A stretch of 55,510 bases of DNA, from positions 1 through 55,510 of the forward strand of contig JAUHVL010000019.1 of the NCBI GenBank assembly GCA_030425045.1. Reading direction: 5' to 3'. Positions 33,146 to 54,838 of the stretch are shown here, one piece after another. Source of the stretch: a bacterium. GTDB taxonomy: Bacteria; Bdellovibrionota; Bacteriovoracia; Bacteriovoracales; Bacteriovoracaceae. The notes under the pieces are model-generated. The model was given only the letters and a program-made list of their open reading frames with translations. It did not search any database and was not told the DNA's origin. Position 1 is the stretch's first letter, and every line of letters begins with the position of its first letter. A program made the translations under genes and the position numbers.

Positions 33146-33964
33146 TTATTTCTGGCACTTCGGACAATAATAAGTTCCTCGCGTGGCCATAACGATTTTC
33201 TTCACGCTCTCTCCACACATACCACAATCTTGCTGATGAAAAACAACAAGATTATTGAGCCCACCACCATCATCTCCAAAGGCGTCTTTATAGCCACCAC
33301 TAAAGGAAAGCCCTTGGTATTTAATTTGTCCCTCGATAACATCTTTCGTGGCTTTTACAAGCTTGCCGACTTCTACTTTGGTAATCTTGGCAAGCCGCCG
33401 ACTAGGACGAACACCAGCAAGAGCACAAATCTCAGAGGCCATATAATTTCCCACCCCACTAAAATACTTTTGCTCTAACAAAAAGGGTTTGATCTGTTTC
33501 TCGGGGAAACGTTTGATAACACTGTGAAGATAGTCGTCATTGAATTCGTCTTTAGATACATCAACACCAAGCCCATCCATAAACTTAAGAGCGTTAACTC
33601 TTTTATAAAAATACATATTCCCAAAACGACGAGGATCAATATAAGCAAGAAACTTTTTCTGCCCATCTACTAATCCCGTAAATTGCAAATGAGTATGCTT
33701 TTCTTTAACTTTCGTCTCCGAAATTCGCCAAGACCCACTCATCCCAAGATGACTTAAAATATGCTGATCATTTTCCAAAATAAAATTTAAAAGTTTCCCT
33801 TTACGATCAATCTCCAAAATCGTCTTCCCATTCGGATTAAACTCTCGCGACTTCTCTTTCAAAATCGAAGAAACCACCGGTGAGAGCTCCATTTTCTGGA
33901 TCTTGAAAGGGAGGATTTTTGTTAGTTGCGAGCGGATGGTTTCCACTTCGGGTAGTTCGGGCAA
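33146..33964 (-). CDS. mutM: Formamidopyrimidine-DNA glycosylase
   Basis: This is a base-excision-repair glycosylase/AP lyase for oxidised guanine. The 272 residues open PELPEVETIR, giving the catalytic N-terminal proline and E3 after Met removal. K57 in DRKGK is the conserved lysine. A Zn finger with CGMC and CPKC closes the protein. The start here is TTG at 33964, not ATG, because the upstream sequence comes from an integrated element. The 16-base attachment core covers codons 1-6. AGGTG at 33968-33972 may be the new ribosome site. Two other copies of this 5' end in the window still read ATG. Confidence 0.95.
   Translation of the reverse strand: MPELPEVETIRSQLTKILPFKIQKMELSPVVSSILKEKSREFNPNGKTILEIDRKGKLLNFILENDQHILSHLGMSGSWRISETKVKEKHTHLQFTGLVDGQKKFLAYIDPRRFGNMYFYKRVNALKFMDGLGVDVSKDEFNDDYLHSVIKRFPEKQIKPFLLEQKYFSGVGNYMASEICALAGVRPSRRLAKITKVEVGKLVKATKDVIEGQIKYQGLSFSGGYKDAFGDDGGGLNNLVVFHQQDCGMCGESVKKIVMATRGTYYCPKCQK
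33948..33963 (-). other. attL core of element 1, within mutM
   Basis: The 16-base core overlaps the first codons of mutM. On the minus strand it reads TGCCCGAACTACCCGA then mutM. Just outside, element sequence GGTTAGGTGAAATT replaces the old start region, so mutM keeps reading from TTG. An identical core is at 44206 and a 14/16 copy at 54823. Confidence 0.8.
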
Positions 33965-34017
33965 ATTTCACCTAACCTTTTGTTTTTATTAATCTATTTT
34001 GTCTCATTTTTCTCTCG

Positions 34018-34036
34018 TCACGACTTCTCACGACTT
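34018..34036. repeat. Candidate integrase arm sites, left end
   Basis: TCACGACTT occurs twice with a 10-base period (34018, 34028), 55 bases inside the attL core. The same core CACGACT recurs at the right end of the element (44057-44086), which fits arm-type binding sites of one tyrosine recombinase. Confidence 0.65.
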
Positions 34037-34116
34037 TTCCATCAATATGTACCACTTTTGAAGCTTGAAAGCGATACGACATTGCTAAAATTTACTGCTT
34101 CTTCCTGTGTTGTTTC

Positions 34117-34240
34117 CTACTCTTTTTGTTGTTCTACACGAATATGATGCATGATTTTTTCAGAAAAAATCTTTTGATCATCTTCGTTACAAGTAGAGTA
34201 GTGATCAGCAAGCTTTAAGTCTTTGTGGCCATTTTGCTCG
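34117..34240 (-). pseudogene. Tyrosine integrase, C-terminal remnant
   Basis: The minus strand reads NGHKDLKLADHYST, then a helix ending VEQQKE and stop. This matches the end of the intact integrases here: GHKDYKLADHYSKL at the equivalent point of the gene at 45,524. It covers the region of the second catalytic His and the catalytic Tyr, about 40 codons. Everything upstream is missing, cut at the junction with the truncated S41 peptidase. It was probably the integrase of element 1. Confidence 0.8.
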
Positions 34241-34253
34241 TTCATTTAAAGAG

Positions 34254-35108
34254 GTGAGAGATCGACACCTTTCATTCAAGCTTGCCGGTAAATATTGTTT
34301 GAGAACTTTTGGAAGAGGACAAGTTGGTAAACGGAAATTTCGAGATCGGAAGAAAATATGGACTGTTGATACAATGAATATGAAAGGAAAGAGTGTTCTT
34401 TTAATTACCATTGCTCGTTTTCCCTCATCGTCCTCATCTGTATGGAGTGGGTTTTTAGATAGTGTTAAAAAAGAGTTATCTAATGTTGAAGCTGTGTTCC
34501 TTGATATGAGAGGTAATGGTGGAGGTGATGATACGATGGGATACCGGCTTGCGAAAATTTTGACTGGTGGAAAATCTATTACAACACCTTATGGGCATCA
34601 ATATAAAGTGGTTACTAGAGCAGGATTAAAGACTCGATGGAATTACTTTATATTGGACAAGCATGAGGCTAAGACGAAAAGAGAAAAAGATTACTTTCAG
34701 AGCTTTATTGACTCAGATACGAGAAAGTATTGGGGAAGTTCTAAAGATACGGTCATTCATGGTTACAGATCACCAAAGGTAAACCATCATAAATTGATAA
34801 AACCAGTTTATATTATACAAGATGCGGATTGCGCTTCTTCTTGTGAAAGTACGATAGACTTTTTCGAGTATCTTTCACCTATCGTAAAAGTTGGAGAGTC
34901 AACGGCCGGCTTTATACATTTTGGTAATATGGGATTTATATTACTTCCGAATAGCTTATTACAAGTAAATATTGCGTCTACTTATCAAGGTTACTTAGAT
35001 GGTCGTTTTATTGAGGCCGTAGGTATAAAGCCTGATGTTATGGTTGAAAAAGGTAAAGATGCTTTCGAGGCTGCTCTGGAGCATTTTATTTCTTCCAGTC
35101 AATTATAG
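34254..35108 (+). CDS. S41-family peptidase, N-terminally truncated
   Basis: The 284-residue frame begins at GTG 34254, but in-frame S41-like sequence continues upstream (HFARSFKEVRDRH) until it meets the integrase remnant; no signal peptide is left. MRGNGGGDDTMGYRL and DADCASSCESTIDFFE carry the C-terminal-processing-peptidase signature, with the candidate catalytic Ser in the CASSCES segment. VGESTAGFIHFGN follows. The intact enzyme would have another 100-200 residues. It may be a fragment fused by recombination, so activity is doubtful. Confidence 0.72.
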   Translation: MRDRHLSFKLAGKYCLRTFGRGQVGKRKFRDRKKIWTVDTMNMKGKSVLLITIARFPSSSSSVWSGFLDSVKKELSNVEAVFLDMRGNGGGDDTMGYRLAKILTGGKSITTPYGHQYKVVTRAGLKTRWNYFILDKHEAKTKREKDYFQSFIDSDTRKYWGSSKDTVIHGYRSPKVNHHKLIKPVYIIQDADCASSCESTIDFFEYLSPIVKVGESTAGFIHFGNMGFILLPNSLLQVNIASTYQGYLDGRFIEAVGIKPDVMVEKGKDAFEAALEHFISSSQL

Positions 35109-35348
35109 AATATATTCAAGACAAAAAAGGTAAAAAGGTATTGATAGAAGAGATTCAACTTTGCTTCCTTTGCCGTATCCCTTTGAAGTCGTAAAGAAAG
35201 TCCATGCACCAAGTAGAAGTGACATCGTTATGGTAAAGGGTAGGGTTTTTATTGTTGTTTGCTTGAGTAGCACTATTGCAAGGAGCGATATTAAGGAAAC
35301 CGAAAATCCATATATTAAGCCCCAACGTAATTTTTGATTCTCAAGCAT
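35103..35348 (-). CDS. Small membrane protein
   Basis: The 81-residue product starts at ATG after GGAGGTATTAAA. It has two or three membrane helices (LIYGFSVSLISLLAIVLL; FTITMSLLLGAWTFF; SIPFYLFCLEYIL). No family is recognised. It overlaps the peptidase 3' end by 6 bases in convergent orientation. Confidence 0.6.
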   Translation of the reverse strand: MLENQKLRWGLIYGFSVSLISLLAIVLLKQTTIKTLPFTITMSLLLGAWTFFTTSKGYGKGSKVESLLSIPFYLFCLEYIL

Positions 35349-35462
35349 TTTAATACCTCCTCTTAAGGCTATCTAATAATAACACAATATGAAATATTCC
35401 CAAAGTGACAACAAACTTTCAGCAAGTTGAATATCATTACACTTTGCTCAGCTTATAATTAC

Positions 35463-35490
35463 TTGACTTGTGTAAAGAATTCTTTACACT
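35463..35490 (+). promoter_or_regulatory. Promoter with perfect palindromic operator
   Basis: TTGACT (35463-35468), a 16-base spacer, then TACACT (35485-35490) form a promoter. Within it is a perfect 20-base palindrome with arms GTGTAAAGAA/TTCTTTACAC (35470-35489). The expected start of transcription falls at about 35497, exactly on the GTG of the next gene, suggesting a leaderless mRNA. Probable autoregulation by the HTH protein. Confidence 0.7.
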
Positions 35491-35496
35491 TGTTTT

Positions 35497-35691
35497 GTGA
35501 AGAATAAACTGAAGGAAATTAGACTTTCGCAAGAGATAAATCAAACAGAGATGGCCAATCAGTGCGATGTTAGTAGACAAACAATTCATGCTACTGAGGC
35601 TGGTAAATATACTCCCTCTGTAGAGTTAGCGATGAAAATGGCCAGGGCTTTGGATGTGAAAGTCGAAGAAATATTTATATTGGAGGAGTGA
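35497..35691 (+). CDS. XRE-type HTH regulator, leaderless start
   Basis: The 64-residue protein is one helix-turn-helix (NQTEMANQCDVSRQTIHATEAGKYTPSVELAMKMARALDV) of the compact YgzD-like group. It starts with GTG at 35497, with no ribosome site upstream and a promoter whose start falls on that codon. It is followed directly by a membrane gene, a standard pairing in which the HTH controls the pair. The palindrome upstream is the likely operator. Confidence 0.85.
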   Translation: MKNKLKEIRLSQEINQTEMANQCDVSRQTIHATEAGKYTPSVELAMKMARALDVKVEEIFILEE

Positions 35692-36093
35692 GTGAAAAAT
35701 AAGTTTATCTACCCGACAAAGAAAAATATGTTGGTTTTGTATTTAGTATTGCAGCTTCCGGTTATAATTTGGGCACTCGTAACATCTAGTGAGCATTTCA
35801 TTAGATCAGTGATTGCCTTTGAGTTTGTTATTTTAGGTTCTATTTGTTTATGGCAATTCAAACCTCGATCAGAAATGGATGAACGAGAGTTACAAATAGA
35901 ATTGAAATGGAAGGATCGAATGTTAGAGTTTACTTATCCATGTATTCTACTACCTATTGTCACACTTTCAATTTACCCTGCAACTGATGGGTGGAGAGTA
36001 TTGATGTTATTTGGTATTCCTGTTTTTATCATTTTTTGTGTCTTGTCTGTTCTTTTAAAAAGAGACTTGGGAGGATTCTTTTATCGTCATTAA
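35692..36093 (+). CDS. DUF2178-like membrane protein, partner of HTH gene
   Basis: The 133-residue product begins GTG directly after the HTH gene. It has four membrane helices, with SEMDERELQIELKWKDRM between helices 2 and 3; the DERE-x-x-I-x-x-K pattern is typical of DUF2178/DUF3169-like HTH-associated membrane proteins. The function of such pairs is unknown, but an envelope-stress or quorum-type sensing role is often guessed. Confidence 0.75.
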   Translation: MKNKFIYPTKKNMLVLYLVLQLPVIIWALVTSSEHFIRSVIAFEFVILGSICLWQFKPRSEMDERELQIELKWKDRMLEFTYPCILLPIVTLSIYPATDGWRVLMLFGIPVFIIFCVLSVLLKRDLGGFFYRH

Positions 36094-36128
36094 ATTTAAA
36101 AGGTTGCTAGAATTATGGGAAAATCACT

Positions 36129-36536
36129 ATGAAAATCAAACGAGCTAAAGAGCTTATATATTCTTTGCCGGAAAATAGAACTTTGGAGGATTATCCTTAT
36201 TCTCTATCAGATAAAGTTTTTCATACCAATCAACTTTTTCTCTACTCTGAAAAGGCTTTACCTGGAAGGAAAGCATCTGCCCCTCATTTTCACAGAAGTA
36301 TTGATGAGATTATTTATGTTTTAAATGGTGAGCTTGTGGCCGTTGAAGGGGAGGAATCTTGTGTATTAAGAAGAGGAGATTCGATCTGCTTTTTGGCAAA
36401 CTCTCAGAAAATGCATTATTTAGAAAACCGTTCAGATAATGAGGCAGAGTTTCTTATTTTTAGAAGGTCAACTACCTTAAATGATGTTGTTTATTCATCT
36501 CATAAAGATATGCAGAAATTTCCCTCTAAAGTCTGA
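36129..36536 (+). CDS. Cupin-domain protein
   Basis: The 135-residue protein has cupin motif 1 in APHFHRSIDEIIYVLNGEL and motif 2 in GDSICFLANSQKMHYLEN. Three His and one Glu are in place for a metal. No catalytic hint is visible. It lies in cargo between the HTH pair and the MerR regulator. GUCUGACA pairs with UGUUAGAC at the 3' end (36531-36549), overlapping the stop codon. Confidence 0.82.
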   Translation: MKIKRAKELIYSLPENRTLEDYPYSLSDKVFHTNQLFLYSEKALPGRKASAPHFHRSIDEIIYVLNGELVAVEGEESCVLRRGDSICFLANSQKMHYLENRSDNEAEFLIFRRSTTLNDVVYSSHKDMQKFPSKV

Positions 36537-36582
36537 CACTATGTTAGACCCGATAATATTTCTATAGGAGTTTTTCACTGAA

Positions 36583-37518
36583 ATGAAGATTGGAGAAATA
36601 TCTAAACAGACAGGGGTTAGCCAAAGGATGATTCGTCATTTCGAGTCAATGAATTTGTTATCACCTGAGAGAAAAGGAACTTATAGAATATATTCAAGTA
36701 GGGATAAAGGTTTAATTCTTAGAATCAAAAAATTTCAAGAACAAGGACTTTCATTAAAGGAAATTAAAACAGTAATTGAAAGTCCTGATGAATCTTTAGA
36801 GATGAAACTTTTAGAATCATTATCTCGTAATAGAAATCAGATTCAAGATCTTAAAAATAAAAACAGTTTAATTTTAGAGTCACTTCAATCACTTAAGTTA
36901 AACTCCTCGACAGAATTTTTAGTACAGGAGGGAGTTATTATGGAATTTGTAAAATCATTTGAGGAAAAAAACGTTGTTCGTGGTCGAATGCCTTATCTTG
37001 AAGTTCTTTATGAGACATTTGTTCATTTAAGTGGGAACCATTGGAGTATGAAGTGGGATAAATGTCCAATGAAAACTCTTCACTCGACGAATCTTTTGCA
37101 TATCAACGAAGGAATAGAAAAAGATAATACGAACGACCTAAAAGTTATTGTCTCATCAGAGGAACAGCAGTTTAGAAATGCATTTGTATTCTTCTTAAGT
37201 CCTGATCTTTTAAAATCAATTACAGGAAAAGAAATTACAATTGAAAGTCTCGAAGATGATAAAGAAGAAAATTTGATTATTACTAAATGGGTTAACCATA
37301 CTATTGAGACATTTAATGTTGCTTGGAATGCGTCTTTTACAACGATAAAACTTGAAAATCATGGGATGCTTGAGAGCAATGATGACATAAAACAATTATA
37401 TCATCATGATGAAATCTTTATTCTTACTAATATGTATACTGAAAATGAAAAAGAGAGATTTTCGATTGGCCTACCTTATCGCTTTGTATCTATTGTTTAT
37501 AATTTATTAAAAAGGTAG
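36583..37518 (+). CDS. MerR-family transcription regulator with large effector domain
   Basis: The 311 residues have a MerR winged helix at 1-70 (GEISKQTGVSQRMIRHFESMNLL, then RIYSSRDKGLI). A dimerising coiled coil over about 75-105 and an unusual 190-residue C-terminal domain follow. The latter contains one CPM motif and several His/Trp (GNHWSMKWDKCPMK), so it may bind a metal or small molecule. Typical MerR metal or BmrR-type motifs are not seen. Its stop lies inside a hairpin terminator. Confidence 0.82.
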   Translation: MKIGEISKQTGVSQRMIRHFESMNLLSPERKGTYRIYSSRDKGLILRIKKFQEQGLSLKEIKTVIESPDESLEMKLLESLSRNRNQIQDLKNKNSLILESLQSLKLNSSTEFLVQEGVIMEFVKSFEEKNVVRGRMPYLEVLYETFVHLSGNHWSMKWDKCPMKTLHSTNLLHINEGIEKDNTNDLKVIVSSEEQQFRNAFVFFLSPDLLKSITGKEITIESLEDDKEENLIITKWVNHTIETFNVAWNASFTTIKLENHGMLESNDDIKQLYHHDEIFILTNMYTENEKERFSIGLPYRFVSIVYNLLKR

Positions 37519-37535
37519 GTCTAAGACCTACCTTT
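37511..37535. terminator. Perfect hairpin, terminator at a convergent junction
   Basis: AAAGGTAGGTCT and its complement AGACCTACCTTT lie around a single central A. On the minus strand five T follow directly, so it terminates the DnaB-like gene. On the plus strand it overlaps the MerR stop codon and has three T only. Confidence 0.75.
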
Positions 37536-37558
37536 AGGCATTGGAGTAATCGTTAAAA

Positions 37559-38359
37559 CTAAAGGTCGTAGAATTTAATTTTTTCTTTGTCCCAACCAAC
37601 ATTGAATAAATGATTTGTTTTTCCTGAAAATGATACTTCGACCTTTTTTTGAGAGATTGTTTCTCTATATAGAAAAATTATTTTATTAAAGAGTTTTATA
37701 TCAAGAGGATTCGGAAGTCTTATATCGTCTACAGTTGGACGTTTGTCTGAACGATATTCAATTTGTCGATCTATTTGAGAAAGGAAAATAATGATACATC
37801 CTGATTCTTTTGCATACTCTTTAAGCTTTTCAATTTGATTTTGAAGAGGAGGATTGGTTCTTTTTTGATCTAAAAGTTGGAGGTAGTCAATAATAACAAG
37901 GGAACCTGGTCTTACTTTTCCTTGTATTGTCTTTGTAATATATTCCGAAGAAATATCATTAGAATAATTAAGTTCAAATAGATCATTGTTTTGTCCGATC
38001 ATTTCATTGTAGGTAGCGATTCTTCCTGCAAGATCCTTGTGAGTTTCATCTAGCGTAAAATAAAAACCTTTGGGCCTTCTTTTCTCAATTGCTTGAACAA
38101 ATAGGCCTATGGTAAAACTTGTTTTTCCTGTTCCTGGCCTTGCTCCAATGAGAACAAGATCTCCATTATTAAAAAAGTCTAAGACTTCACCATAGTTCTT
38201 AGGAAGTAATTTCTCTTTTTGAGATGCCAGTAATGACCATGAATTGAAACCTTCTTGTTTTGCAATGAGGTCTAGGGCCTGTGTCATGGTTAGCGATTGC
38301 TCGTTTTTGAGTTTTTTTGCCTTAGATTTTAAAATGTGAATGGGTGATGATAATTTCAT
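37559..38359 (-). CDS. DnaB/RecA-fold ATPase with short N-terminal domain
   Basis: The 266-residue protein has an N-terminal helical piece (residues 1-50; TMTQALDLIAKQEGFNSWSLLAS) common to a group of DnaB-like proteins. A RecA-type core follows: Walker A GARPGTGKTS near residue 72, Walker B LVIIDYLQLLD, and IIFLSQIDRQI. It lacks the DnaB N-domain, so it is not a replicative helicase by itself. It starts after GGAGGTTTCAG. A helicase loader, repair or defence-linked ATPase is possible. Confidence 0.75.
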   Translation of the reverse strand: MKLSSPIHILKSKAKKLKNEQSLTMTQALDLIAKQEGFNSWSLLASQKEKLLPKNYGEVLDFFNNGDLVLIGARPGTGKTSFTIGLFVQAIEKRRPKGFYFTLDETHKDLAGRIATYNEMIGQNNDLFELNYSNDISSEYITKTIQGKVRPGSLVIIDYLQLLDQKRTNPPLQNQIEKLKEYAKESGCIIIFLSQIDRQIEYRSDKRPTVDDIRLPNPLDIKLFNKIIFLYRETISQKKVEVSFSGKTNHLFNVGWDKEKIKFYDL

Positions 38360-38671
38360 CTGAAACCTCCAAATAAAGACTCGTAAAACATTCCCTTCTT
38401 CTGTCTAAGCCTATTTAAAGGTTAGATTTAGATTTTTACTATTCTGTACTCAGGTACTTTCCCATTGAAGGGGGGAGGTGTGAATAAAACCCATACTTAA
38501 TTGTATTTTCGGTTTCTTTGATTTTCAACTTTAAATTGTAGAGAGCCTTTTTAAATTTTAGTATTTTGGTATTTATACTGCTTTGGGACTGGTCGTTATG
38601 TATATGGTGCGTAATAATAGGCTTGCCAGTAATAGTAATAGCTTTTGCAATGAAAACAAAAGAGGCCATGA
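38360..38671. other. Gap in element 1 with no supported gene
   Basis: These 312 bases hold the ribosome site of the ATPase gene at the left, the AGAGG site for the acetyltransferase at the right, and a minus-strand open frame (38439-38669) with no ribosome site. I see no convincing promoter or fold. Confidence 0.4.
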
Positions 38672-39655
38672 ATGACTAAGCTTATTTTTATAAAGAAAGC
38701 GACCGAATCAGATATTGAGGAATGGGTTGATGCTCGAATTGAGCTTTGGCCATCTCATTCAAGAAAAGAACATTTAGAAGAAATATCTGAGTTTTTTCAA
38801 GGTGATGGATATATCAACTTTATTGGAAGAATTGATAATAAATTATGCTGCTTTTTAGAGGCATCAATTCGTCCTTTTGCTAATGGTTGTTCACAAAGAC
38901 CTGTTCCATTTCTTGAAGGCATCTGGGTTGATCCTAAATATCAACGCTCAGGATTTGGCCAACAGTTAGTAAAGAAATTAGAAGAATGGGCAATTGCTAA
39001 TGGATTTAATGAAATAGGATCTGATTGCGAAATTGAAAATGCTCAATCTCAAAATGCTCATGAAAAATGGGGATTTCAAGAAAAAGAAAGGGTTGTATAT
39101 TATCATAAGAGTCTATGTGTAAAGGATAATGAAATAGAGATACCAACATTAGAAACCAAAAGGCTTCGATTAGAACCTCTTTCAATGAAACATTCGTTAG
39201 GTATGTTCAAACTTTGGTCTGATGAAAAGGTATCTCGGTACTCAGGACCTATTCGTGATAGTGATGGAAATCTGATAGATATGCCAGCATCAAGAATAGA
39301 GCAAACTGACTTACTTATTGAGTTTTGGGATAAGGCTTTAAATGATGGCTGGGGATTTCGTTGGGCGATTATCCTTCTTGAAACTGATGACCCTTTTTTG
39401 GGAACTGTTGGGTTTAACTCTTTATCTGACCAATATGAAATAGCTTTTCACCTTGTCTCGGACTATTGGGGAAAAGGAATTATGACTGAAGCTTCAACTG
39501 CAGCAATTATTTGGGCATTTTCGAGGGGAGCAACTTCAATAGAGGCTTTTATAGAGCCAGAAAATAAACCCTCTTTCGCTCTGGCCACCCGTCTTGGTAT
39601 GCATCCAACTGAAGACTATATCGAAGGAGCAAGAAAATATGTTAAGGTACTTTGA
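38672..39655 (+). CDS. Two-domain acetyltransferase: AAC(6')-like plus RimJ/L-like
   Basis: The 327 residues join two GNAT domains. Residues 1-150 resemble aminoglycoside 6'-N-acetyltransferase (ELWPSHSRKEHLEEI, PVPFLEGIWVDPKYQRSGFG, WAIANGFNEIGSDCEIENAQSQNAHEKWGF), with the acetyl-CoA loop QRSGFG. Residues 157-327 resemble RimJ/RimL-type protein or small-molecule acetyltransferases (TKRLRLEPLSMKHS, YEIAFHLVSDYWGKGIMTEA). A two-domain aminoglycoside-modifying enzyme with unusual second half is possible, but substrate is unproven. It is cargo of element 1. Confidence 0.82.
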   Translation: MTKLIFIKKATESDIEEWVDARIELWPSHSRKEHLEEISEFFQGDGYINFIGRIDNKLCCFLEASIRPFANGCSQRPVPFLEGIWVDPKYQRSGFGQQLVKKLEEWAIANGFNEIGSDCEIENAQSQNAHEKWGFQEKERVVYYHKSLCVKDNEIEIPTLETKRLRLEPLSMKHSLGMFKLWSDEKVSRYSGPIRDSDGNLIDMPASRIEQTDLLIEFWDKALNDGWGFRWAIILLETDDPFLGTVGFNSLSDQYEIAFHLVSDYWGKGIMTEASTAAIIWAFSRGATSIEAFIEPENKPSFALATRLGMHPTEDYIEGARKYVKVL

Positions 39656-39691
39656 ATAATATTTGTTAAAAACTTATGAGATGATATTATT

Positions 39692-40549
39692 ATGAATAAC
39701 AAAACTATTCTTTTACTCGGATCATCTGGTTGGGTAGCTCATTATTTAATTTCAGATTTAAAACGAGCTGGATTTGACGTAATTGGTTTTTCTAATTCAA
39801 AGAAACCTCATCACCAGATTGAAAATTATTATTTTGACATCAGTGATGATAATTATATTTCAGAAGTCAAGACAGTTAGATGCGATTTTATTATAAATGC
39901 ACTTCATTCAAAAGATTTTGATAGGTCTTTTGAAGTTCATGTGGCCCTTGCCCAATATTGTAAAGAGTCAGGAAAGCATTATACTTATATGTCTTCATCA
40001 AATGCGTTGGATGGCAACCCGACTAAGCCTCATTATGAAGCGGATAGAGCATTTGGGGGAAGTGATTATGGAAAGTATAAAGCGAAATGTGAACATTACC
40101 TCTACGAAAATATGGCCGAAGCTTTAATTATTAGATTTCCGGCCACCCATGGTTATGCCCCAAATCGTATTGCAAGAACCGAAGAATTCCTAATTCAGCT
40201 AAAGAATAAAGAAAAAGTAACTTGCATGAGGGGGATTTACCAATGTCGTCCCTTTGTTGGGCATTTATCAAAAATGATAACCAAGGCCATTTTAGAAGTG
40301 GAGTCAGGGATTTTCCATATGAGTGCAACCACAGAAAGTGAGGAATTTGAATTTCTTGGAAGGGTTGCAGAAGCCTTTGGGTACTCAAAGGAGCAAGTTG
40401 AGTCAGGTGAGGAACTCAGTTGGGTTATGACAATTTTTCCGAATAAAATCTTTGAAAAATATGGTGATGAGTACAAATTTACAGAGAAAGACACAATAGA
40501 AGCTTTGGCAAAGTGTCCAAATCTGCAAAAATATCTGAATGGTCTATAA
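39692..40549 (+). CDS. NAD-dependent epimerase/dehydratase-like protein (RmlD type)
   Basis: The 285-residue protein is an extended short-chain reductase. LLLGSSGWVAHYLISDL is the Rossmann start, VRCDFIINALHS follows, YMSSSNALDG carries the Ser, and YGKYKAKCEHYL the YxxxK pair. RmlD-type enzymes reduce nucleotide-sugar intermediates. The substrate here is unknown. It sits just before a P-loop kinase-like gene, so an accessory sugar or nucleoside pathway is conceivable. Confidence 0.78.
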   Translation: MNNKTILLLGSSGWVAHYLISDLKRAGFDVIGFSNSKKPHHQIENYYFDISDDNYISEVKTVRCDFIINALHSKDFDRSFEVHVALAQYCKESGKHYTYMSSSNALDGNPTKPHYEADRAFGGSDYGKYKAKCEHYLYENMAEALIIRFPATHGYAPNRIARTEEFLIQLKNKEKVTCMRGIYQCRPFVGHLSKMITKAILEVESGIFHMSATTESEEFEFLGRVAEAFGYSKEQVESGEELSWVMTIFPNKIFEKYGDEYKFTEKDTIEALAKCPNLQKYLNGL

Positions 40550-40611
40550 TTGAACTTATTGAAACTCATCAGTGTAGTTCCAAAATTATGTTAATTAATA
40601 TATTATTAGGT

Positions 40612-41280
40612 ATGGCGAAGCATGACTCTCTGGTTAGTATTTTTGAAAAACTCTTTGAACGAATTACTGGAAACACACCAACTCTAATCGCTATTGATGG
40701 AGTCGATGGTGCAGGTAAAAGTATTTTTGCAAAGAGACTAGCTGACTACCTTAGAGATAAAAACTTAAATGTAATACATAGTTCTGTTGATCACTTTCAC
40801 AACCCTAAGGTAATACGACACAGCCCTGAGATGAAAACCTATCAAGCTTATTTTGAGAATAGTTTCGATTACTCTGCTTTAAAAACAGAATTACTAAATC
40901 CAATAAAGTTGTCTTCGAGAGAATATTGTATACTCGATTACTTTGACTATAAAACAGATTCAAAAGTTTCTACCGATCCTGTAAAAATTATGCCTGATAC
41001 TATTTTAGTTTTTGATGGTATATTCTCCAATCGTGATGAGTTAAAAGACTACTGGGATATTAGTATTTTTTTAGATGTCAATTTTGAAGAATCCTATAAG
41101 CGAATGTCTATTAGAGATGGATGCCCTTGTAACCCAAAAGATAAGTTGAATGAGAGATACTATCAGGGACAAAGGCTTTACATTGAGAGATGTGACCCAA
41201 GAGGTAGAGCTACTATGGTCATTAATAATAATGATTATGAAAATCCTAAGATTGTTGAAATTAAAGCAGACAGTAACTAA
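40612..41280 (+). CDS. Uridine-kinase-like P-loop kinase
   Basis: The 222-residue product has Walker A IAIDGVDGAGKSIFAKRLADYL, then SVDHFHNP, DYFDYKT, VFDGIFSNRDELKDYWD and DPRGRATMVINN, the order of uridine-kinase/phosphoribulokinase-like proteins. ATG 40612 is chosen because earlier in-frame starts (GTG 40513, ATG 40588) overlap or crowd the previous gene. Its ribosome site is weak either way. Substrate cannot be told from sequence. Confidence 0.75.
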   Translation: MAKHDSLVSIFEKLFERITGNTPTLIAIDGVDGAGKSIFAKRLADYLRDKNLNVIHSSVDHFHNPKVIRHSPEMKTYQAYFENSFDYSALKTELLNPIKLSSREYCILDYFDYKTDSKVSTDPVKIMPDTILVFDGIFSNRDELKDYWDISIFLDVNFEESYKRMSIRDGCPCNPKDKLNERYYQGQRLYIERCDPRGRATMVINNNDYENPKIVEIKADSN

Positions 41281-41323
41281 TTAGGTATTTGTACTTATTT
41301 ATTATAGGCAATCTTCTAACTTA

Positions 41324-41671
41324 ATGAGATTCTTAGATAATATGAACTTAATCTATAATAAAAAAATAATCTTAGAAGACATTACACTGGCTAATAATTT
41401 CTGGAAAAGATTGTCTGGCTATATGTTTAGAAAAAAACCACACGTGCCTGGTATCTTGTTTATTACCTCTAGCTCAATGCAAACAACATTTATGAGATTT
41501 GAGCTAGATATAATTTTTCTTGATAAGGATAACAAAATTGTTAAATTTCTAAAAAATGTAAAACCTTGGAGATTCACAATTTTTTATAAAAATACCTCTA
41601 AAGTACTAGAGGTTCCTTCAGGCAAAATCCAAGAGGAAATACGAGAGGGCGAAACCCTAAGTTTTTCCTAA
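41324..41671 (+). CDS. DUF192 protein
   Basis: The 115 residues fit DUF192: FWKRLSGYMFRKK, MQTTFMRFELDIIFLDKDNKIVK, VKPWRF and VLEVPSGK-x-x-E. Members are small single-domain proteins of unknown job. No signal peptide is visible, unlike many relatives. Confidence 0.8.
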   Translation: MRFLDNMNLIYNKKIILEDITLANNFWKRLSGYMFRKKPHVPGILFITSSSMQTTFMRFELDIIFLDKDNKIVKFLKNVKPWRFTIFYKNTSKVLEVPSGKIQEEIREGETLSFS

Positions 41672-41783
41672 ATAATCACTCAATAAAAAATTTCAAGTAA
41701 AACATATGTGTTTGGGCATTCTTTCAAAATCACAGAATAAAAGTAAGGTCGAACATAGACCAATTTTTTAACGCTGGTATCGT

Positions 41784-42548
41784 TTAAAGTTTCGCCAGAT
41801 AAAAAAATACCTTACAGTTAGAAATGTGGTCTTCTCGCTCTAGCGCAGTTAGAAATTCTTTTTTAAATGAATCAAAGCTTTCACCAAAAAAACTTTTTAG
41901 GCCACCCATTCTATCAAGGCGGTTTTTCCAGCCTATCAATACTTCGGGATCGGCAATTCCTTGGAAGGAGAGTTCTTGATCTTCAAGAATATGTTCCTCA
42001 ACGATTTTAAATCCAGTTTTTTCTAGGTTAGATTTTAACTTTTTGCCACTTTCAAAATCATAATTATTATTTACATACGAGTTATTATAGAATTTTTTGA
42101 TAAGTTGAGTATATTCATCTTTCATTGGTGTGTGATTGAATAGACCAGACATTTCAGTGATTGCAATCCAGCCATTATGCTTTAGCAATTTCTTCCAGTT
42201 CAATAGTATTTCATCAAAGTTTGGGAAGTAGGCTGGAACAAAAGAAGTCCATATCCCATCAGCTTGAGCAAAATCTTCAGTATAAATTTTCTCAAGATCA
42301 CAATAGTCAAAGGAAGCATTCTCAATGTTTCTTTCCTGAGCGTATGATAGAAGGTTTTGATTTGCATCAAGTCCTTGAACTATAGCCCCCATCGTCGATA
42401 GCTTTTTTGAATGATCTCCATGTGCACAACCTAAGTCATAAATGAGCTTTTTATTGAGGTCAGGAAGTTTTGGAAAAACATCATCCCATTTTCTCCATTG
42501 CCATTGTTTTCTATATTGTTCCAGTAATGAGTGTTCCATTTGTAGCAT
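41784..42548 (-). CDS. Class I SAM-dependent methyltransferase
   Basis: The 254-residue product has motif I YDLGCAHGDHSKKL and a Rossmann-type methyltransferase order (GLDANQNLL, FDYCDLEKI, IWTSFVPAYFPNFDEILLNWKKLLKHNGWIAITE). Specific substrate is not clear; small-molecule methyltransferases of this group vary. It lies just after the second antitoxin gene, separated by 2 bases from it on the same strand. Confidence 0.82.
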   Translation of the reverse strand: MLQMEHSLLEQYRKQWQWRKWDDVFPKLPDLNKKLIYDLGCAHGDHSKKLSTMGAIVQGLDANQNLLSYAQERNIENASFDYCDLEKIYTEDFAQADGIWTSFVPAYFPNFDEILLNWKKLLKHNGWIAITEMSGLFNHTPMKDEYTQLIKKFYNNSYVNNNYDFESGKKLKSNLEKTGFKIVEEHILEDQELSFQGIADPEVLIGWKNRLDRMGGLKSFFGESFDSFKKEFLTALEREDHISNCKVFFYLAKL

Positions 42549-42550
42549 CT

Positions 42551-42868
42551 TTAAACAGGATCAATGATTATTCTTGTTTTCAAGTTGAAGACCTCTTGCA
42601 GGTGATTTATGACAGAGTCGGTAGAAAGCCTTGTTTTATTGTTGATAAAATCTAAAACACATTGGCTTGAAAGTCCTGTTTTATTTGCGAAAGATTTTAA
42701 CCCCATTGATTTGATAGTTTCTTTTAATGCCTGATGAATTGTTAAACCTTCTATATTAATAAGATTTATAATATAGGCTTGAGCAAAATCTAAATCTTCA
42801 AATTGAGCGGCGACTAATTCATTAAAATCTTTGTGTCGATTGACCATGTTTATATCTGATTCCATCAT
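42551..42868 (-). CDS. Antitoxin paralogue (HTH), second copy
   Basis: The 105-residue HTH protein is clearly related to the antitoxin beside it. FEDLDFAQAYIINLINIEGLTIHQALKETIKSMGLKSF lines up with FENLDYAKGYILNMTENEGLDVKDALRETIKAMGLQNF, and the recognition helices follow. It lies 5 bases downstream of the first antitoxin. The tandem pair may be a duplication that adds immunity or regulation. It has no obvious ribosome site of its own. Confidence 0.75.
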   Translation of the reverse strand: MMESDINMVNRHKDFNELVAAQFEDLDFAQAYIINLINIEGLTIHQALKETIKSMGLKSFANKTGLSSQCVLDFINNKTRLSTDSVINHLQEVFNLKTRIIIDPV

Positions 42869-42873
42869 ATTTT

Positions 42874-43182
42874 TTATGCAGCAGCAGTATCATCAAAAAG
42901 TGACAATTTAGCCTTTAGTTTGAAAACTTCATAGATATGCTTTTTAAGCTTTTCTGTACTCCAGTTTTGTCTTTCAGATACAAAGTCAGACACGGCTTGA
43001 ATTGATAAACCAGACTTTTCAGAAAAGTTTTGTAGTCCCATGGCCTTTATTGTTTCACGTAAAGCATCTTTAACATCAAGACCTTCATTTTCAGTCATAT
43101 TAAGAATATACCCCTTAGCATAGTCTAAGTTTTCAAATTTTTGTGCTAACACTTCATCATAGCTTTTATTTCGATTTGCCAT
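42874..43182 (-). CDS. Addiction-module antitoxin (HTH)
   Basis: The start is ATG 43182 after GGAGTAATT, giving about 102 residues; a longer frame from 43245 has no ribosome site. It has the antitoxin plan: a short N-terminal arm, FENLDYAKGYIL (neutralising region), then a helix-turn-helix (NFSEKSGLSIQAVSDFVSER). It overlaps the toxin's 3' end by 17 bases, as in coupled modules with toxin first. Confidence 0.82.
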   Translation of the reverse strand: MANRNKSYDEVLAQKFENLDYAKGYILNMTENEGLDVKDALRETIKAMGLQNFSEKSGLSIQAVSDFVSERQNWSTEKLKKHIYEVFKLKAKLSLFDDTAAA

Positions 43183-43492
43183 AATTACTCCAATACTCTT
43201 TCGCTTTTTCAATGTCACGTTTTTGAGTTTTTTTATCTCCACCAATTAATAATAAAATGAGCTTATCTCCATCTTCACCAAAGTAAACTCTCAGTCCTGG
43301 CCCGTGATAAATTTTTATTTCAAAAACACCATCTTTTAAACTTTTAATGTGTTTTTTTGCTCCACCCTGAGCAACCCTTTGAATGAATCGGTCGACAATA
43401 ATTTGGGCATTCATATCCAAACCATTAACCCAATCAAGAAAGGGAGTCTTATCATTTTCTGTTACATAGTGATCAATCTTTTTAACGGTCAT
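43166..43492 (-). CDS. RelE/ParE-superfamily addiction-module toxin
   Basis: The start is ATG 43492 after AAGGAATAGGG; the protein has 108 residues. The fold pattern fits the addiction-module killer family: FLDWVNGLDMNAQIIVDRFIQRVAQGGAKKHIKSL, VFEIKIYHGPGLRVYFGEDGDKLILLLIGGDKKTQKRDIEKAKEYW. The GPG-x-RVYF and GGDKKTQ motifs are diagnostic of this branch. The family inhibits translation or gyrase. It precedes its antitoxin. Confidence 0.85.
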   Translation of the reverse strand: MTVKKIDHYVTENDKTPFLDWVNGLDMNAQIIVDRFIQRVAQGGAKKHIKSLKDGVFEIKIYHGPGLRVYFGEDGDKLILLLIGGDKKTQKRDIEKAKEYWSNYGKSK

Positions 43493-43611
43493 CCCTATTC
43501 CTTTTATTAAACTACATGAATAAATGTAGTTTGTCAAGATATAGCTTTATACTACTGAAAATAGGGGAAACTATGACATTTCCCCTACCGATTTTTATCA
43601 ATTTAATTTTC

Positions 43612-43935
43612 CTACTGTGCATGGGCCGAGATCCTTGAGTGACTAACAACAAACTCTCTTAGTTGACCAAGAAAAAGCATTTCTTTCCATTTATCATCTG
43701 AAATTTTTCCTTTTTGCTTTTCCCAAAGCTTGCGAAGCCGTCTTTCTTCGTGGGACCAGGTAATAGTTTTAAGTTGCAAGGCCTTAATATCTTCGTCATT
43801 AATATTGTCTATAAAATGTCCCACAAAGTGATCAAAGGTGACTTTTCCGCAGTCTTCATTTTTATTAATTTTTTCAAGCAGCCTTGTTACATTGTCTTTG
43901 GTTTTTTCTTTCACCCTGATTGCAGTATATTGCAT
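43612..43935 (-). CDS. Hypothetical basic protein, possible DNA-binding
   Basis: The 107-residue product starts MQYTAIRVKEKTKDNVTRLL, which could be a ribbon-helix-helix-like strand and helix. The remaining sequence is charged and helical (TWSHEERRLRKLWEKQKGK). No certain family. It may be an accessory factor of the element near its right end. Confidence 0.55.
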   Translation of the reverse strand: MQYTAIRVKEKTKDNVTRLLEKINKNEDCGKVTFDHFVGHFIDNINDEDIKALQLKTITWSHEERRLRKLWEKQKGKISDDKWKEMLFLGQLREFVVSHSRISAHAQ

Positions 43936-44029
43936 TTTTATTTGGGGGTTGTGCCTTTTTTGATTTCATAAATGTGACTCCTTACGTTTTTACTTGTTCC
44001 TTTTTTTGTCGATCATCACAGAAGTAAAA

Positions 44030-44050
44030 TGACCCTTATTTTTAAGGTCA
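44030..44050 (-). terminator. Hairpin before the right end of element 1
   Basis: TGACCCTTA pairs with TAAGGTCA (one bulged C) around a T-rich loop, and on the minus strand TTTT follows. It would stop transcripts entering from the right and shield element 1. The rest of the 43,936-44,349 gap holds the arm repeats and the attachment core described separately. Confidence 0.5.
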
Positions 44051-44056
44051 AAAACC

Positions 44057-44096
44057 TCACGACTGTCGACACGACTTTCACGACTGAAATCGTGAA
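44057..44096. repeat. Candidate integrase arm sites, right end of element 1
   Basis: TCACGACTG (44057), ACACGACTT (44069) and TCACGACTG (44078) are direct copies, and an inverted TCACGATT is at 44088-44096. They share the core CACGACT with the left end (34018-34036). They sit 110-150 bases inside the attachment core. Confidence 0.65.
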
Positions 44097-44205
44097 ATGA
44101 CGTTAAATATTGTGAGAAAAAATGAAATGACTAAAACGCTAGAAGGCCCATTAACACTGGTAATTCATTGATTTGATTGATGTTTTAAAAGGTCGGATCT
44201 ATTCC

Positions 44206-44221
44206 TCGGGTAGTTCGGGCA
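44206..44221 (-). other. Attachment core between elements 1 and 2
   Basis: The core TCGGGTAGTTCGGGCA is exact to the mutM copy. On the minus strand it lies in ATG CCC GAA CTA CCC GAG GAA TAG (44222-44199): the first five codons of mutM then a stop supplied by the element. Element 1 lies to the left and a second unit, with its own arm repeats 44 bases away, to the right. Confidence 0.78.
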
Positions 44222-44264
44222 TTTGCTTTAATTCCAATAGTTTAAGTCCTAAAAGTGGGCCTTA

Positions 44265-44297
44265 TAGAACTCCTGTAGAACTTTTATAGAACTTTTG
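44265..44297. repeat. Three 11-base tandem repeats, candidate arm sites
   Basis: TAGAACT recurs at 44265, 44276 and 44287 with an exact 11-base period (TAGAACTCCTG, TAGAACTTTTA, TAGAACTTTTG). They lie 44 bases outside the core at 44221. The geometry mirrors the left end of element 1, with different sequence, so a different integrase is implied. Confidence 0.65.
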
Positions 44298-44349
44298 GTT
44301 TAATTGGGGAAGTTTTTAGATAATTTACACTTTGCGTAGTGGAGACCTT

Positions 44350-44712
44350 ATGCGTTTAAATCACCTTCATATAAATGTTCCAGATGTAAAAAAGGCACAA
44401 AAGTTTTACCAAGACTTTTTTAATTTTAAAGTGGAGTTTGAACATGGGGAGGGCGTGTTTTTAAAAGATAGTGATGGTTTTCTTCTTGCTTTAGACCCTC
44501 TTGAAAATAATGAAAAAGTAGAGCTTCCAAAATGGTTTCATTTTGGGTTTTGTTTAGATAGTGCAGAAGAAGTGAAGTCGCTATATGAAAAAATGAAAGC
44601 CAATGGTGTTGAATTTAATAGAGAATATAAAGAGTTTAGTGAAGATGCTGCCAACTTTTATTGTATAGCTCCTGGTCCATATAATATGGAAGTAACTTGG
44701 AATAGGGATTAA
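44350..44712 (+). CDS. VOC-fold (glyoxalase/bleomycin-resistance-like) protein
   Basis: The ATG at 44350 follows GGAGACCTT and gives 120 residues; an earlier in-frame codon at 44332 has no such site. RLNHLHINVPDVKKAQKFYQDFF, WFHFGFCLDSAEEVKSLYEKMKANGVEF and YCIAPGPYNMEVTW are the typical VOC beta-alpha-beta-beta-beta modules. Metal ligands include H in HLHINV, H in WFHFGF, and the last E of MEVTW. A ring-cleavage, resistance or isomerase role is undecided. Confidence 0.82.
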   Translation: MRLNHLHINVPDVKKAQKFYQDFFNFKVEFEHGEGVFLKDSDGFLLALDPLENNEKVELPKWFHFGFCLDSAEEVKSLYEKMKANGVEFNREYKEFSEDAANFYCIAPGPYNMEVTWNRD

Positions 44713-44714
44713 TT

Positions 44715-45170
44715 ATGAAAGTATTTCTAATAAGCTGCTTAGTTCTTTGTTTAAATTCTAATATTTTTGCTATGAGTAAAGCAGATAAGAAGATATGTGC
44801 TAAAGCATACGACTCATTACAGGCTTTTAATAAAGGGATTAGTTTTACTAGTTTTTATGAATACTATCAGAAATATGGAAAGTGTCAGATGGATGGGGCT
44901 TTCGCTGAAGAACATAGTATTTTCTCTACAATTATTTTCTTTAAAAATTGGGATAAATTAGGAGAGTTTGCAAAGCTAATTAAGAAAACGCCAGGTTTCA
45001 AAAAATATGTCCTTGCTGGAGTAAATGTAACTGTTACTGGCATAGTGAAAGAATCAAAGCAAATTTTGAAAAATACAAAAGAAAAATGTCCTAAAGGCCA
45101 TAAAAAACTATGCTCGGAAATTCATCAATCTTTTAAATCGGCTTTAGACGATGAGATGAAAAGTTATTAA
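44715..45170 (+). CDS. Hypothetical exported protein
   Basis: The 151-residue product has a signal peptide (MKVFLISCLVLCLNSNIFA), then a helical mature region with four cysteines (CAKAY; GKCQMDG; EKCPKGHKKLC) that could pair in the periplasm. No family is recognised. It starts 3 bases after the VOC gene and 2 bases before the next. Confidence 0.65.
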   Translation: MKVFLISCLVLCLNSNIFAMSKADKKICAKAYDSLQAFNKGISFTSFYEYYQKYGKCQMDGAFAEEHSIFSTIIFFKNWDKLGEFAKLIKKTPGFKKYVLAGVNVTVTGIVKESKQILKNTKEKCPKGHKKLCSEIHQSFKSALDDEMKSY

Positions 45171-45171
45171 T

Positions 45172-45540
45172 ATGAAATTTATTAAAATGCATAACCCAAA
45201 AATCACAATTGCTTTTCTTATAATATTGGCAATCATAATTTTCTTTAGCCGATCTCCTTCCTTAATATTAATAGGTTTACCATTACTTTTTTGGAATAAT
45301 TTAAAATGTAAAATTGGGCTAGGTGAAAAGGAATTGATATTCGATTTGGGTAAGCATGGCACATACTCAATCATAATTTCTTCTATCAAGAAAGTTGAAA
45401 TTAGTAAGAGATATATCTATCTATATTGGGATAATGGAGAAATGATTGATGGACAAAAAATAAGCGGCTATCCTCATAAAAGATTATTATCATTTTTAAA
45501 AGAGAAACTTGATCCTTCATTATTCATCGAATTAGCTTAA
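45172..45540 (+). CDS. Small membrane protein with PH-like region
   Basis: The 122-residue product has a double membrane helix at residues 10-42 (ITIAFLIILAIIIFF; SLILIGLPLLFW). A strand-rich cytoplasmic part follows, ending in a helix (HKRLLSFLKEKLDPSLF), reminiscent of bacterial PH domains. Function unknown. It overlaps the integrase 3' end by 17 bases. Confidence 0.6.
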   Translation: MKFIKMHNPKITIAFLIILAIIIFFSRSPSLILIGLPLLFWNNLKCKIGLGEKELIFDLGKHGTYSIIISSIKKVEISKRYIYLYWDNGEMIDGQKISGYPHKRLLSFLKEKLDPSLFIELA

Positions 45541-46732
45541 TAACATTATCAGGCTTCTCAAATTCAACCCTCTCTTTTTTCTCAACTTCTTCCATGATTT
45601 TTATACTTAAATCTCGTTGATATTCATGATCTAGTTTTGAATAGTGATCTGCTAGCTTATAATCCTTATGACCAGTCATTGCTATAACAGCATCAAGACC
45701 GCCACCTACTTTTCTCGCTAGAGTTGCCATGCCATGTCTCAATATGTGAGTTCCAGAGTAGGGAAGATTGGCTTTTCTATTGGCTGATCTATAATTTACG
45801 AGGATGGTACAGTAGTTTAATGGTTTGCCATTAATATGGAAGACAAATTCATTGTTTGGGATTTTATCTTTTTGCCTTCTTAAAAGAATCTCTCGAATCT
45901 GATCTGTTATATAAGCAGACCTAGGTTCTTTATTTTTAGGATGGGGATTAAGTTCTAAAAAGGTTTTTCTTGATTGATGAAACCTCGCTGTTTCCATGAT
46001 CGTGATTTTACGGTTGATAAAATCAACTCGATGCCATTGAAGTCCTGCTATCTCAGATACCCTTGCAGCAAGAAAGAATTGGAGCTTGGCAAAGTCTCGA
46101 TAGAGTTCAGGAAGATGAGCAAAAAAGTCTAGAGCGTGATCTAGGGTAATCTTCTTTTCTTTAACGGGAATAGCTCGTATAAATCCTAGTTTTTTGTGTT
46201 TAGTTTTGACGGGATTTACTAAATGCAAAGCCTCTTGCTCAAAGGTTTCTGATTGTTTGTACCAATTGAAGATGGTGGTGAACATATTGAGTTCATTGTT
46301 GAGGTTACATCTTTTTGCTCGACCTCTTGAGTTTTGCTCATATTCATCAGATTTAAAGAATTTGACCTGATTTTGTACCCAGCTAGTGACGATTGAGGGA
46401 GTGATAAAGTCCATTGGCAAATGTTCGATGTCTTTTAAAAGAGAGTATCGCCTTTTCCATATAGCTCTAGTCGATGGAGCAAGAGTGGGGAAGTGGTCCT
46501 TTTGGTATTGGGACCAAACTTCCCTAAGAGTGGCGCAATCACTTTTTATGGGAGCTGGTTTTTCAATGTCGCCAGAAAAGTGTTTACGCCAGTTTCTTGC
46601 TTCGGCTAATGAAGTGAAGGTCTTGGTATATTTTTTATTATCAACTCGTTTAACAGCATAATAACGACCAGTATTCTTTTGTTTATAAATACCGGGATGA
46701 GCTTTGAGTTTTAAATAATACTTTTTTCTCAC
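45524..46732 (-). CDS. Tyrosine recombinase/integrase (second)
   Basis: The 402-residue protein has an AP2-like arm-binding domain at residues 15-52 (GIYKQKNTGRYYAVKRVDNKKYTKTF), a core-binding region, and a catalytic domain. That has R in LAARVSEIAGLQWHRVD, HILRHGMATLARK (H-x-x-R) and TGHKDYKLADHYSKL (His and the nucleophile Tyr). It is paired with the excisionase-like gene by ATGA overlap. It is the same length as the integrase at 53,525 but differs widely from it. It is the likely integrase of the second unit. Confidence 0.93.
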   Translation of the reverse strand: MRKKYYLKLKAHPGIYKQKNTGRYYAVKRVDNKKYTKTFTSLAEARNWRKHFSGDIEKPAPIKSDCATLREVWSQYQKDHFPTLAPSTRAIWKRRYSLLKDIEHLPMDFITPSIVTSWVQNQVKFFKSDEYEQNSRGRAKRCNLNNELNMFTTIFNWYKQSETFEQEALHLVNPVKTKHKKLGFIRAIPVKEKKITLDHALDFFAHLPELYRDFAKLQFFLAARVSEIAGLQWHRVDFINRKITIMETARFHQSRKTFLELNPHPKNKEPRSAYITDQIREILLRRQKDKIPNNEFVFHINGKPLNYCTILVNYRSANRKANLPYSGTHILRHGMATLARKVGGGLDAVIAMTGHKDYKLADHYSKLDHEYQRDLSIKIMEEVEKKERVEFEKPDNVIKLIR

Positions 46733-53524: not shown

Positions 53525-54733
53525 ATGGGAAAAACCGTTAAAAATCCATACCTTGATACCAAACACAAAGGTATCAAAAAGCACTATAAGACTGGTCACT
53601 ATCGTGCCAGAAAGAAAATCAATGGTGTAGACCACAAGAAGACATTCGCTAACATTAGAGATGCTATACAATGGCGCTATACTTTTAATGGAATTAATAG
53701 TGTAGTTGGTGGCCATACTATTAAAAAGAATTCTTCTAAACTGGCCTATGTTTTGAGTCGCTTTCAAGATTTACACTTTCCTTCCCTTAGACCTCAAACT
53801 CAAAAGAAGATGATTCAACAGTATCGTCTACTTCATGATTTGGAACACTTTGAGATGCACGAAATTAACTCCACACTTTTAAGTGAGTGGATAATTCAAA
53901 AAGTTGAGCATTTCAAACTATTGCAAGCTGAGGGAAAAGGAAGTGGTGTTCAAGCAAGATGTTCACTGGACACAGAGTTGAAGATTCTAAAGCAAGTCTT
54001 TAGCTGGTACAAAGAAGAAGCTGAATTTGATAATGAGTCTAAAGATGTATTTTGTCCTGTTAAGAAAAGACATTACGCTCTTGGCAGTATCAAAAAGAAG
54101 GTCAAGCGTGACAAGAAGATTCCACCAAGTGATGTTCTACTTCTCTTTGAGAACTTGGAACCTCTCTATCGAGATTTGGCCATCATTCAGTATTTTTGTG
54201 CTGGAAGAATTGGAGAGACTCTTGGTATTCAAAAAGATTCGATTGATTTTAAAAATCGCATACTGAATATCTCTCACACGGCCATCTTCAACTCAAGCAA
54301 AACTTTCTGGTATTTGAGTGACTTAACCAAAACTGGTGAAGATAGAACAGTTCATATCAACGACACTTTAAGAGATGCTCTACTCTCTCGAATAAATGAC
54401 GGAGATAAGAACTGTAGTTTCGTTATACAGTATCAAGGTAAACCCTTGAACTACGGAACGGCACTTCTTCACTACAACAAGACACTCAAAAAACTTGGTC
54501 TACCATATTCTGGAACTCACATTCTCAGACATGGTTGTGCCTCTCTTGCCAGAACACTAACAGGTTCTCTTGATGCTTGTATGTCTATGACTGGTCATCG
54601 TGACATAAGAGTAGCTGAAAATTACGCCGAGTTAAGTGACAAAGTCAAAATCGACACCTCACTACAAGTTGAAGAACACCTCAACAAATTGAAAAAAGCT
54701 GGTCCAAATTCTGGATTTCAGCTCATTCAATGA
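53525..54733 (+). CDS. Tyrosine recombinase/integrase (third, right end)
   Basis: The 402-residue protein has an AP2-like arm domain (GIKKHYKTGHYRARKKINGVDHKKTF). Catalytic motifs are CAGRIGETLGIQK, HILRHGCASLARTL and TGHRDIRVAENYAEL. Start ATG after GGAGAAATAG. The stop is 88 bases before an attachment core at 54822, in the same relative order as the remnant and attL of element 1. It faces outward from the region, opposite to the integrase at 45,524. The 53,275-53,524 gap before it holds no gene I can support. Confidence 0.93.
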   Translation: MGKTVKNPYLDTKHKGIKKHYKTGHYRARKKINGVDHKKTFANIRDAIQWRYTFNGINSVVGGHTIKKNSSKLAYVLSRFQDLHFPSLRPQTQKKMIQQYRLLHDLEHFEMHEINSTLLSEWIIQKVEHFKLLQAEGKGSGVQARCSLDTELKILKQVFSWYKEEAEFDNESKDVFCPVKKRHYALGSIKKKVKRDKKIPPSDVLLLFENLEPLYRDLAIIQYFCAGRIGETLGIQKDSIDFKNRILNISHTAIFNSSKTFWYLSDLTKTGEDRTVHINDTLRDALLSRINDGDKNCSFVIQYQGKPLNYGTALLHYNKTLKKLGLPYSGTHILRHGCASLARTLTGSLDACMSMTGHRDIRVAENYAELSDKVKIDTSLQVEEHLNKLKKAGPNSGFQLIQ

Positions 54734-54821: not shown

Positions 54822-54838
54822 ATGCCCGAACTTCCAGA
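54822..54838 (+). other. Third mutM-type attachment core, opposite orientation
   Basis: ATGCCCGAACTTCCAGA is the mutM start (M P E L P) with 14/16 identity to the other cores, but reads on the plus strand. It is followed by TGAGTAA, closing a seven-codon frame MPELPDE. No mutM body follows, so the site is a relic, a rearranged end, or an att for a different mutM allele. Confidence 0.6.

Follow-up and report, generated by a model that had tools for sequence, protein, structure and literature searches.

The first codons of mutM as a probable junction for integrative elements that supply its start codon in Bacteriovoracaceae

MutM, the formamidopyrimidine-DNA glycosylase, acts in the 8-oxoguanine pathway. 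In the bacterium analysed here its gene opens with TTG, and the question raised by this locus is whether that start codon belongs to the gene or to the DNA upstream of it. The window, i.e. the whole stretch of 55,510 nucleotides that was analysed, is the entire contig C61 of a 91-contig genome. Judging from the sequence, we consider it very probable that a family of integrative elements uses codons 1-6 of mutM as the site at which its tyrosine integrases recombine, that 33948-33964 marks the mutM side of such a junction, and that the element supplies the start. The gene and its 5' end comprise:

33146..33964, minus strand: mutM (formamidopyrimidine-DNA glycosylase), TTG start, 272 aa, intact
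33962..33964, minus strand: TTG start codon, apparently element-supplied; stop two codons upstream, start travelling with near-identical elements elsewhere
33948..33963, minus strand: att core TGCCCGAACTACCCGA, equal to mutM codons 1-6, from the core search

The product matched the Pfam families Fapy_DNA_glyco, H2TH and zf-FPG_IleRS as well as NCBIfam PRK01103 (1.1e-57, slightly below the family cut-off), and it has the N-terminal Pro-Glu, the H2TH domain and the zinc finger that define MutM/Fpg. As the original prediction had it, mutM opens with TTG: the minus strand from 33964 to 33948 reads TTG CCC GAA CTA CCC GA. An in-frame stop two codons upstream leaves room for an extension of one codon, the next in-frame methionine lies about 25 residues into the protein, past the catalytic N-terminus, and the catalytic proline of MutM has to come directly after the initiator. 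Because of the upstream stop and this position of the proline, TTG is the only usable start and the true start codon of mutM.

Upstream of this codon lies a first element, A, with the following features:

33964..44217, no strand: element A, about 10.3 kb, its integrase defunct; both ends have direct core repeats and arm-like repeats, genes by Pfam
33965..33992, minus strand: element left-end motif TTAATAAAAACAAAAGGTTAGGTGAAAT, containing the Shine-Dalgarno sequence (33968-33977); profile score and anti-SD duplex
34019..34035, no strand: two exact CACGACT repeats at the left end (34019, 34029), possible integrase arm sites
34042..34230, minus strand: C-terminal relic of A's own integrase (GHKDLKLADHY...SFKSGTY), one internal stop, remainder deleted
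44058..44085, no strand: three exact CACGACT repeats at the right end of A (44058, 44070, 44079)

Direct att repeats, TGCCCGAACTACCCGA at 33948 and 44206 on the same strand, bound element A, its right boundary (about 44217) being approximate. The claim that the bases upstream of mutM come from an element held on two counts. A 22-position profile of the region near the start codon, built from integrase-adjacent mutMs, scored 21.5 at the window junction against a 98% null of 3.2. Furthermore, when the translation of 34260-33965 was compared with the C-termini of other mutM integrases, the frame 34230-34042, running toward mutM, read GHKDLKLADHYSTCNEDDQKIFSEKIMHHIRVEQQKE...FKSGTY and matched the C-terminus of mutM-site integrases. 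Element A has no intact integrase, only this C-terminal relic, and it appears to keep the standard order of integrase, att and mutM with the integrase reduced to the relic. With the window integrase in this state, the TTG start would be locked in unless int1 or int2, described below, acts in trans. The cargo of A consists of S41 peptidase, MerR, DnaB-like, GNAT, methyltransferase and HigB/HTH-like genes (Pfam). A Pfam scan of 20 window proteins, of which element A encodes 10, matched no conjugation gene; some relatives at mutM (L047, L036) carry TrbI, VirB4/TraG-like and coupling-protein genes and are conjugative. Compared with the DNA of the family, the left end of A matched 8 other genomes, weakly and over short lengths only, and no copy of this particular element was found elsewhere.

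Further cores and two intact integrases lie beyond element A:

44206..44221, minus strand: att core at A's right end and B's left end, with ATG and a seven-codon ORF, MPELPEE*
45524..46732, minus strand: int1, tyrosine integrase of element B (Pfam Phage_integrase 1.5e-13; alignment A1)
53525..54733, plus strand: int2, tyrosine integrase (Pfam), with the inverted core 88 bp beyond
54822..54838, plus strand: inverted att core, with ATG and ORF MPELPDE*

The core search gave four matches in the window, where 0.40 were expected and none of 100 shuffles reached four; the fourth match (33148) has two mismatches and is unrelated to the att cores. Contig C19 of the same genome holds two additional exact cores. 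That two other copies of the mutM 5' end read ATG CCC GAA was borne out at 44221 (minus) and 54822 (plus). We considered these ATGs as the ancestral mutM start and rejected them: the one at 44221 is joined to the left end of element B and the one at 54822 comes after int2, so that both are left ends of other elements (homologous ends) and do not by themselves show ATG as the native start. The left flank of the 44206..44221 core resembles an internal core of genome G007 (locus L210), and the right flank of the 54822..54838 core is homologous to position 17091 of C19.

Both int1 and int2, 39% identical to each other, match Pfam PF00589 and are thus phage-type tyrosine integrases adjoining an att site. 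Alignment A1 showed R224, H329, R332, H355 and Y364 to be invariant, which we take to be the catalytic residues of the mutM-site integrases. Unlike in nearly all other cases, int1 stands 1.3 kb from its core (44222-45523), with three plus-strand genes between; L210 of G007 shows a related arrangement, with the core 1470 bp away. Element B also encodes a Mom-family protein (DNA modification, 46944-47852). The core at 54822-54838 (plus) and int2 at 53525-54733 are inverted with respect to mutM and adjoin a serine resolvase (52669-53274), which suggests that part of the array was inverted or that the assembly was joined there.

Relatives of the window mutM were found in Bacteriovoracaceae and neighbours, and two scans with overlapping, hence not independent, genome sets were made. 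Named genomes yielded 54 loci in one scan, of which 53 belong to the int1 family; the integrase lies directly upstream of mutM in 42 of the 53, and a core derived from the MutM N-terminus lies at most 260 bp downstream of the integrase in 52. In IMG/VR, both confident hits among the 10 listed had the same order of integrase, core and mutM. Within the family, 111 of 129 genomes had a mutM match, of which seven (G068, G089, G091, G111, G116, G132, G134) were left unused as partial or distant (38% identical). Of the 104 loci examined, 99 could be used; L056 was excluded for a misaligned start, L152 for a broken reading frame, and L154-L156 because contig ends cut them. In 43 of the 99, an int1-family integrase with the orientation of mutM terminates less than 400 bp upstream of that gene. 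A further 20 have an upstream core, although some of these are likely chance matches (starts AAT, GTA, ATA, CTC) and that of L131 is a second mutM-like gene. Neither integrase nor core was seen at 26, within stretches of 5 kb or more, and an element may lie further out; the contigs of the remaining 10 were too short to class. Integrases stand at mutM in at least 20 genera, and the Bacteriovoracaceae, which are predatory bacteria, appear to host a tyrosine-integrase family dedicated to the first codons of mutM. MAGs make up most of the genome set, and assemblies can be misled by repeats at the core; the contigs of L154, L155 and L156 (G069, G066, G115) break within codons 1-5 of mutM, as expected of an assembler at repeated cores.

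The elements at L196 and L209 are 99.3% identical over 1249 nt and stand before MutMs that are 34% identical. They also share the synonymous bases of codons 2-6, so that strand exchange may sometimes take place further to the right. A single left end with TTG recurs at L197, L198 and L175, once before mutM and on two other contigs before array-internal cores; these first diverge at base 3 of codon 2, as L167 and L173 likewise do. Since near-identical elements in different mutMs agree up to base 2 of codon 2, start codon and Shine-Dalgarno sequence would travel with the element. The left-end motif lay above threshold in 42 of the 43 integrase-adjacent loci (leave-one-out), i.e. relatives sharing it mostly carry an integrase adjoining mutM, and in 10/20 loci with an upstream core, 8/26 with no element seen and 8/10 short ones. 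Non-ATG starts occurred in 28 of the 79 mutMs with a sign of an element (ATT 12, ATC 4, GTG 6, TTG 6) and in one of the 20 without, a group that lacks the motif by definition (Fisher p=0.006); with the motif left out as a sign the proportions were 25/63 and 3/26 (p=0.011). The sole exception among the 20 is a GTT in G078, in an array; its contig equals that of L207 in length and in the position of mutM, and at L207 integrase and core stand further upstream. No uninserted relative with TTG and the same upstream bases was found: the mutMs without an element sign have ATG in 19/20 cases and TTG in none. The ATG-to-TTG step in the lineage of the window would follow from these relatives, not from the two other copies. 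The part of the original prediction that had integration change the start codon therefore stood in that the element appears to supply the start; its use of the two other ATG copies as ancestral did not, these being element ends.

Within arrays (n=26, including the mutM-like paralog L131, which should be dropped), mutM was non-ATG while the outermost core had ATG in 11, and the reverse held in one. The trees and the associated comparison of starts and Shine-Dalgarno sequences were made without L203, a duplicate of L202. On the integrase tree (41 loci) the class ATT/ATC/GTT needed four changes, as few as none of 300 shuffles, whereas on the MutM tree it needed eight, which is the maximum and not better than chance; the start class appears to follow the integrase tree, not the MutM tree.

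The mechanism that we propose would run as follows. A tyrosine integrase would recombine the element into codons 1-6 of mutM, with strand exchange just inside codon 2. After integration mutM would be its own from about codon 2, the start codon, the Shine-Dalgarno sequence and all upstream DNA coming from the element, and the native start would come to lie at the opposite end of the insert, as the beginning of a truncated copy. In this scheme the end of the element would act as a portable translation-initiation region that keeps intact MutM made, with element-specific start codons (ATG, GTG, TTG, ATT, ATC). Target, junction, element origin of the start codon and integrase relic can be read directly from the sequence; transcription of mutM from element sequence, often probably together with int, and selection keeping mutM expressed are what we infer beyond this.

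Whether MutM is lowered by such a start, as had also been proposed, is another matter, and this was not supported: TTG is a canonical alternative start, and the predicted Shine-Dalgarno sequence of the window is very strong, its anti-SD duplex being put at -11.8 kcal/mol, where element-bearing loci with ATG average -3.9. Among element-bearing loci, predicted pairing was stronger for ATT/ATC (-6.8 kcal/mol) than for ATG (-3.9 kcal/mol), with a p value of 0.0004 that is optimistic, the lineages being related. For two pairs of MutMs behind ATT/ATC starts, dN was 0.12 and 0.14 with dS of 2.1 and 3.9, as expected under purifying selection, which appears to act on them. Strong Shine-Dalgarno sequences with weak starts and a conserved MutM speak for an element end that is made to sustain translation of mutM. 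At L042 (G015), which has an ATT start, the frame is open for 119 codons upstream with an in-frame ATG 16 codons before; a protein lengthened at its N-terminus in this way would have its catalytic proline buried. According to the relevant passage of PMC11497404, citing Hecht 2017, the output of UUG in E. coli reporters is about 30% of that of AUG.

For the consequences to the host we weighed several readings. The element might re-time or lower MutM, mutM being the last gene behind an integrase promoter and weakly initiated; the level of MutM and the mutation rate would then depend on the element, as for SpyCI and mutL. We see this as possible, if on balance doubtful. The integrase reads in the direction of mutM at a distance of about 40-250 bp, and ATT/ATC starts occur in 16/99 loci. 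No consensus promoter was found at 33940-34300. The sigma70-like score over the 150 nt upstream showed no excess for integrase-adjacent mutMs (8.23 vs 8.16 shuffled, n=43) and an excess at the 26 loci with no element seen (8.77 vs 8.44, p=0.01), a contrast that would weakly fit read-through from int. In SpyCIM5, a promoter inside an int pseudogene drives mutL (described in part of PMC3430984), a direct precedent for an integrase relic upstream of mutM. Against this reading, the weak starts are paired with strong Shine-Dalgarno sequences, in the window too, and ATG is still used by 28 of the 43 integrase-adjacent mutMs. A promoter change is likely insofar as mutM has lost its native upstream DNA, and a changed timing of mutM from element upstream DNA seems plausible.

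More tentatively, the mutM initiation codon could be a mobile allele (ATG, GTG, TTG or the near-forbidden ATT/ATC, each with a matched Shine-Dalgarno sequence), the resident element setting the MutM level, which would change with each integration or excision; equally tentative is the part of this idea by which MutM would become sensitive to IF3 or to transcription of the element's integrase. We also find it rather unlikely that the start codon is a by-product, integrase binding fixing bases ~1-3 and ATT, ATC, TTG or ATG being tolerated without effect on the host. The left end is indeed conserved as a block and the start class follows integrase lineages, but all 99/99 mutM starts are start or near-cognate codons, and the stronger pairing of weak codons suggests selection on initiation. 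That TTG is the native mutM start of the lineage, with unrelated repeats nearby, is very improbable and was rejected: TTG also opens mutM in G014, G110, G072, G063 and G064, but four of these five have an integrase adjoining mutM (G014 being grouped by a weak upstream core only), the window junction has left-end motif, integrase relic and arm repeats, and the element-free relatives use ATG.

Replacement of a single host gene's 5' end by an island is already known from dusA, from mutL (SpyCI) and from streptococcal ICEs. The dusA-associated genomic islands (2015) and SpyCI come closest. For the former, PMC4482086 describes an integrase family specific to a single housekeeping gene, at whose 5' end it acts, and a replacement 5' end supplied by the island. 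The target here is mutM (42/53 loci, with mutM-derived cores in the others) in Bacteriovoracaceae, in place of dusA; what is replaced amounts only to roughly the start codon and the DNA upstream, the codon varies and includes ATT/ATC, and cores form arrays. The term 'start codon' is absent from the main text of that paper. SpyCI of Streptococcus pyogenes (PMC3430984, in part) likewise occupies, as a mobile element, the 5' end of a gene for mutation avoidance, with a decayed int upstream that in SpyCIM5 holds the mutL promoter. It differs in being a phage-like island of a Gram-positive, at mutL in a mismatch-repair operon, and in its demonstrated growth-dependent excision; MutM, for its part, belongs to the 8-oxoguanine pathway. 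For Streptococcus ICEs in the 5' ends of rbgA, ebfC and ftsK, insertion can replace upstream sequence and promoter, but mutM is no target (0 occurrences of 'mutM'), the N-terminus is unmodified and start-codon exchange is unmentioned in the passages concerned (PMC4701971). The open-access literature searched contained no account of integration exchanging a start codon, nor any that names mutM as a target of this kind.

If our reading is correct, the start codon of this repair gene would belong to whichever element sits there. The same gene with native or element-supplied initiation regions constitutes a natural experiment repeated over at least 20 genera, and the element-supplied regions include AUU and AUC starts, otherwise hardly used, of which infC is the classic case. 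It would allow one to test whether the amount of a mutation-avoidance enzyme is set by mobile elements, and how an integrase manages to target the catalytic N-terminus of an enzyme while leaving its gene functional.

Two minor observations concern the arrays and their surroundings. A second mutM-like gene lies upstream of mutM at L131 (G120) and also in G136. The array at L082 (C19) has cargo at 12446-16103 that matched AbiC/AbiP and NsnA-like proteins (PADLOC), and this mutM array may carry defence genes.
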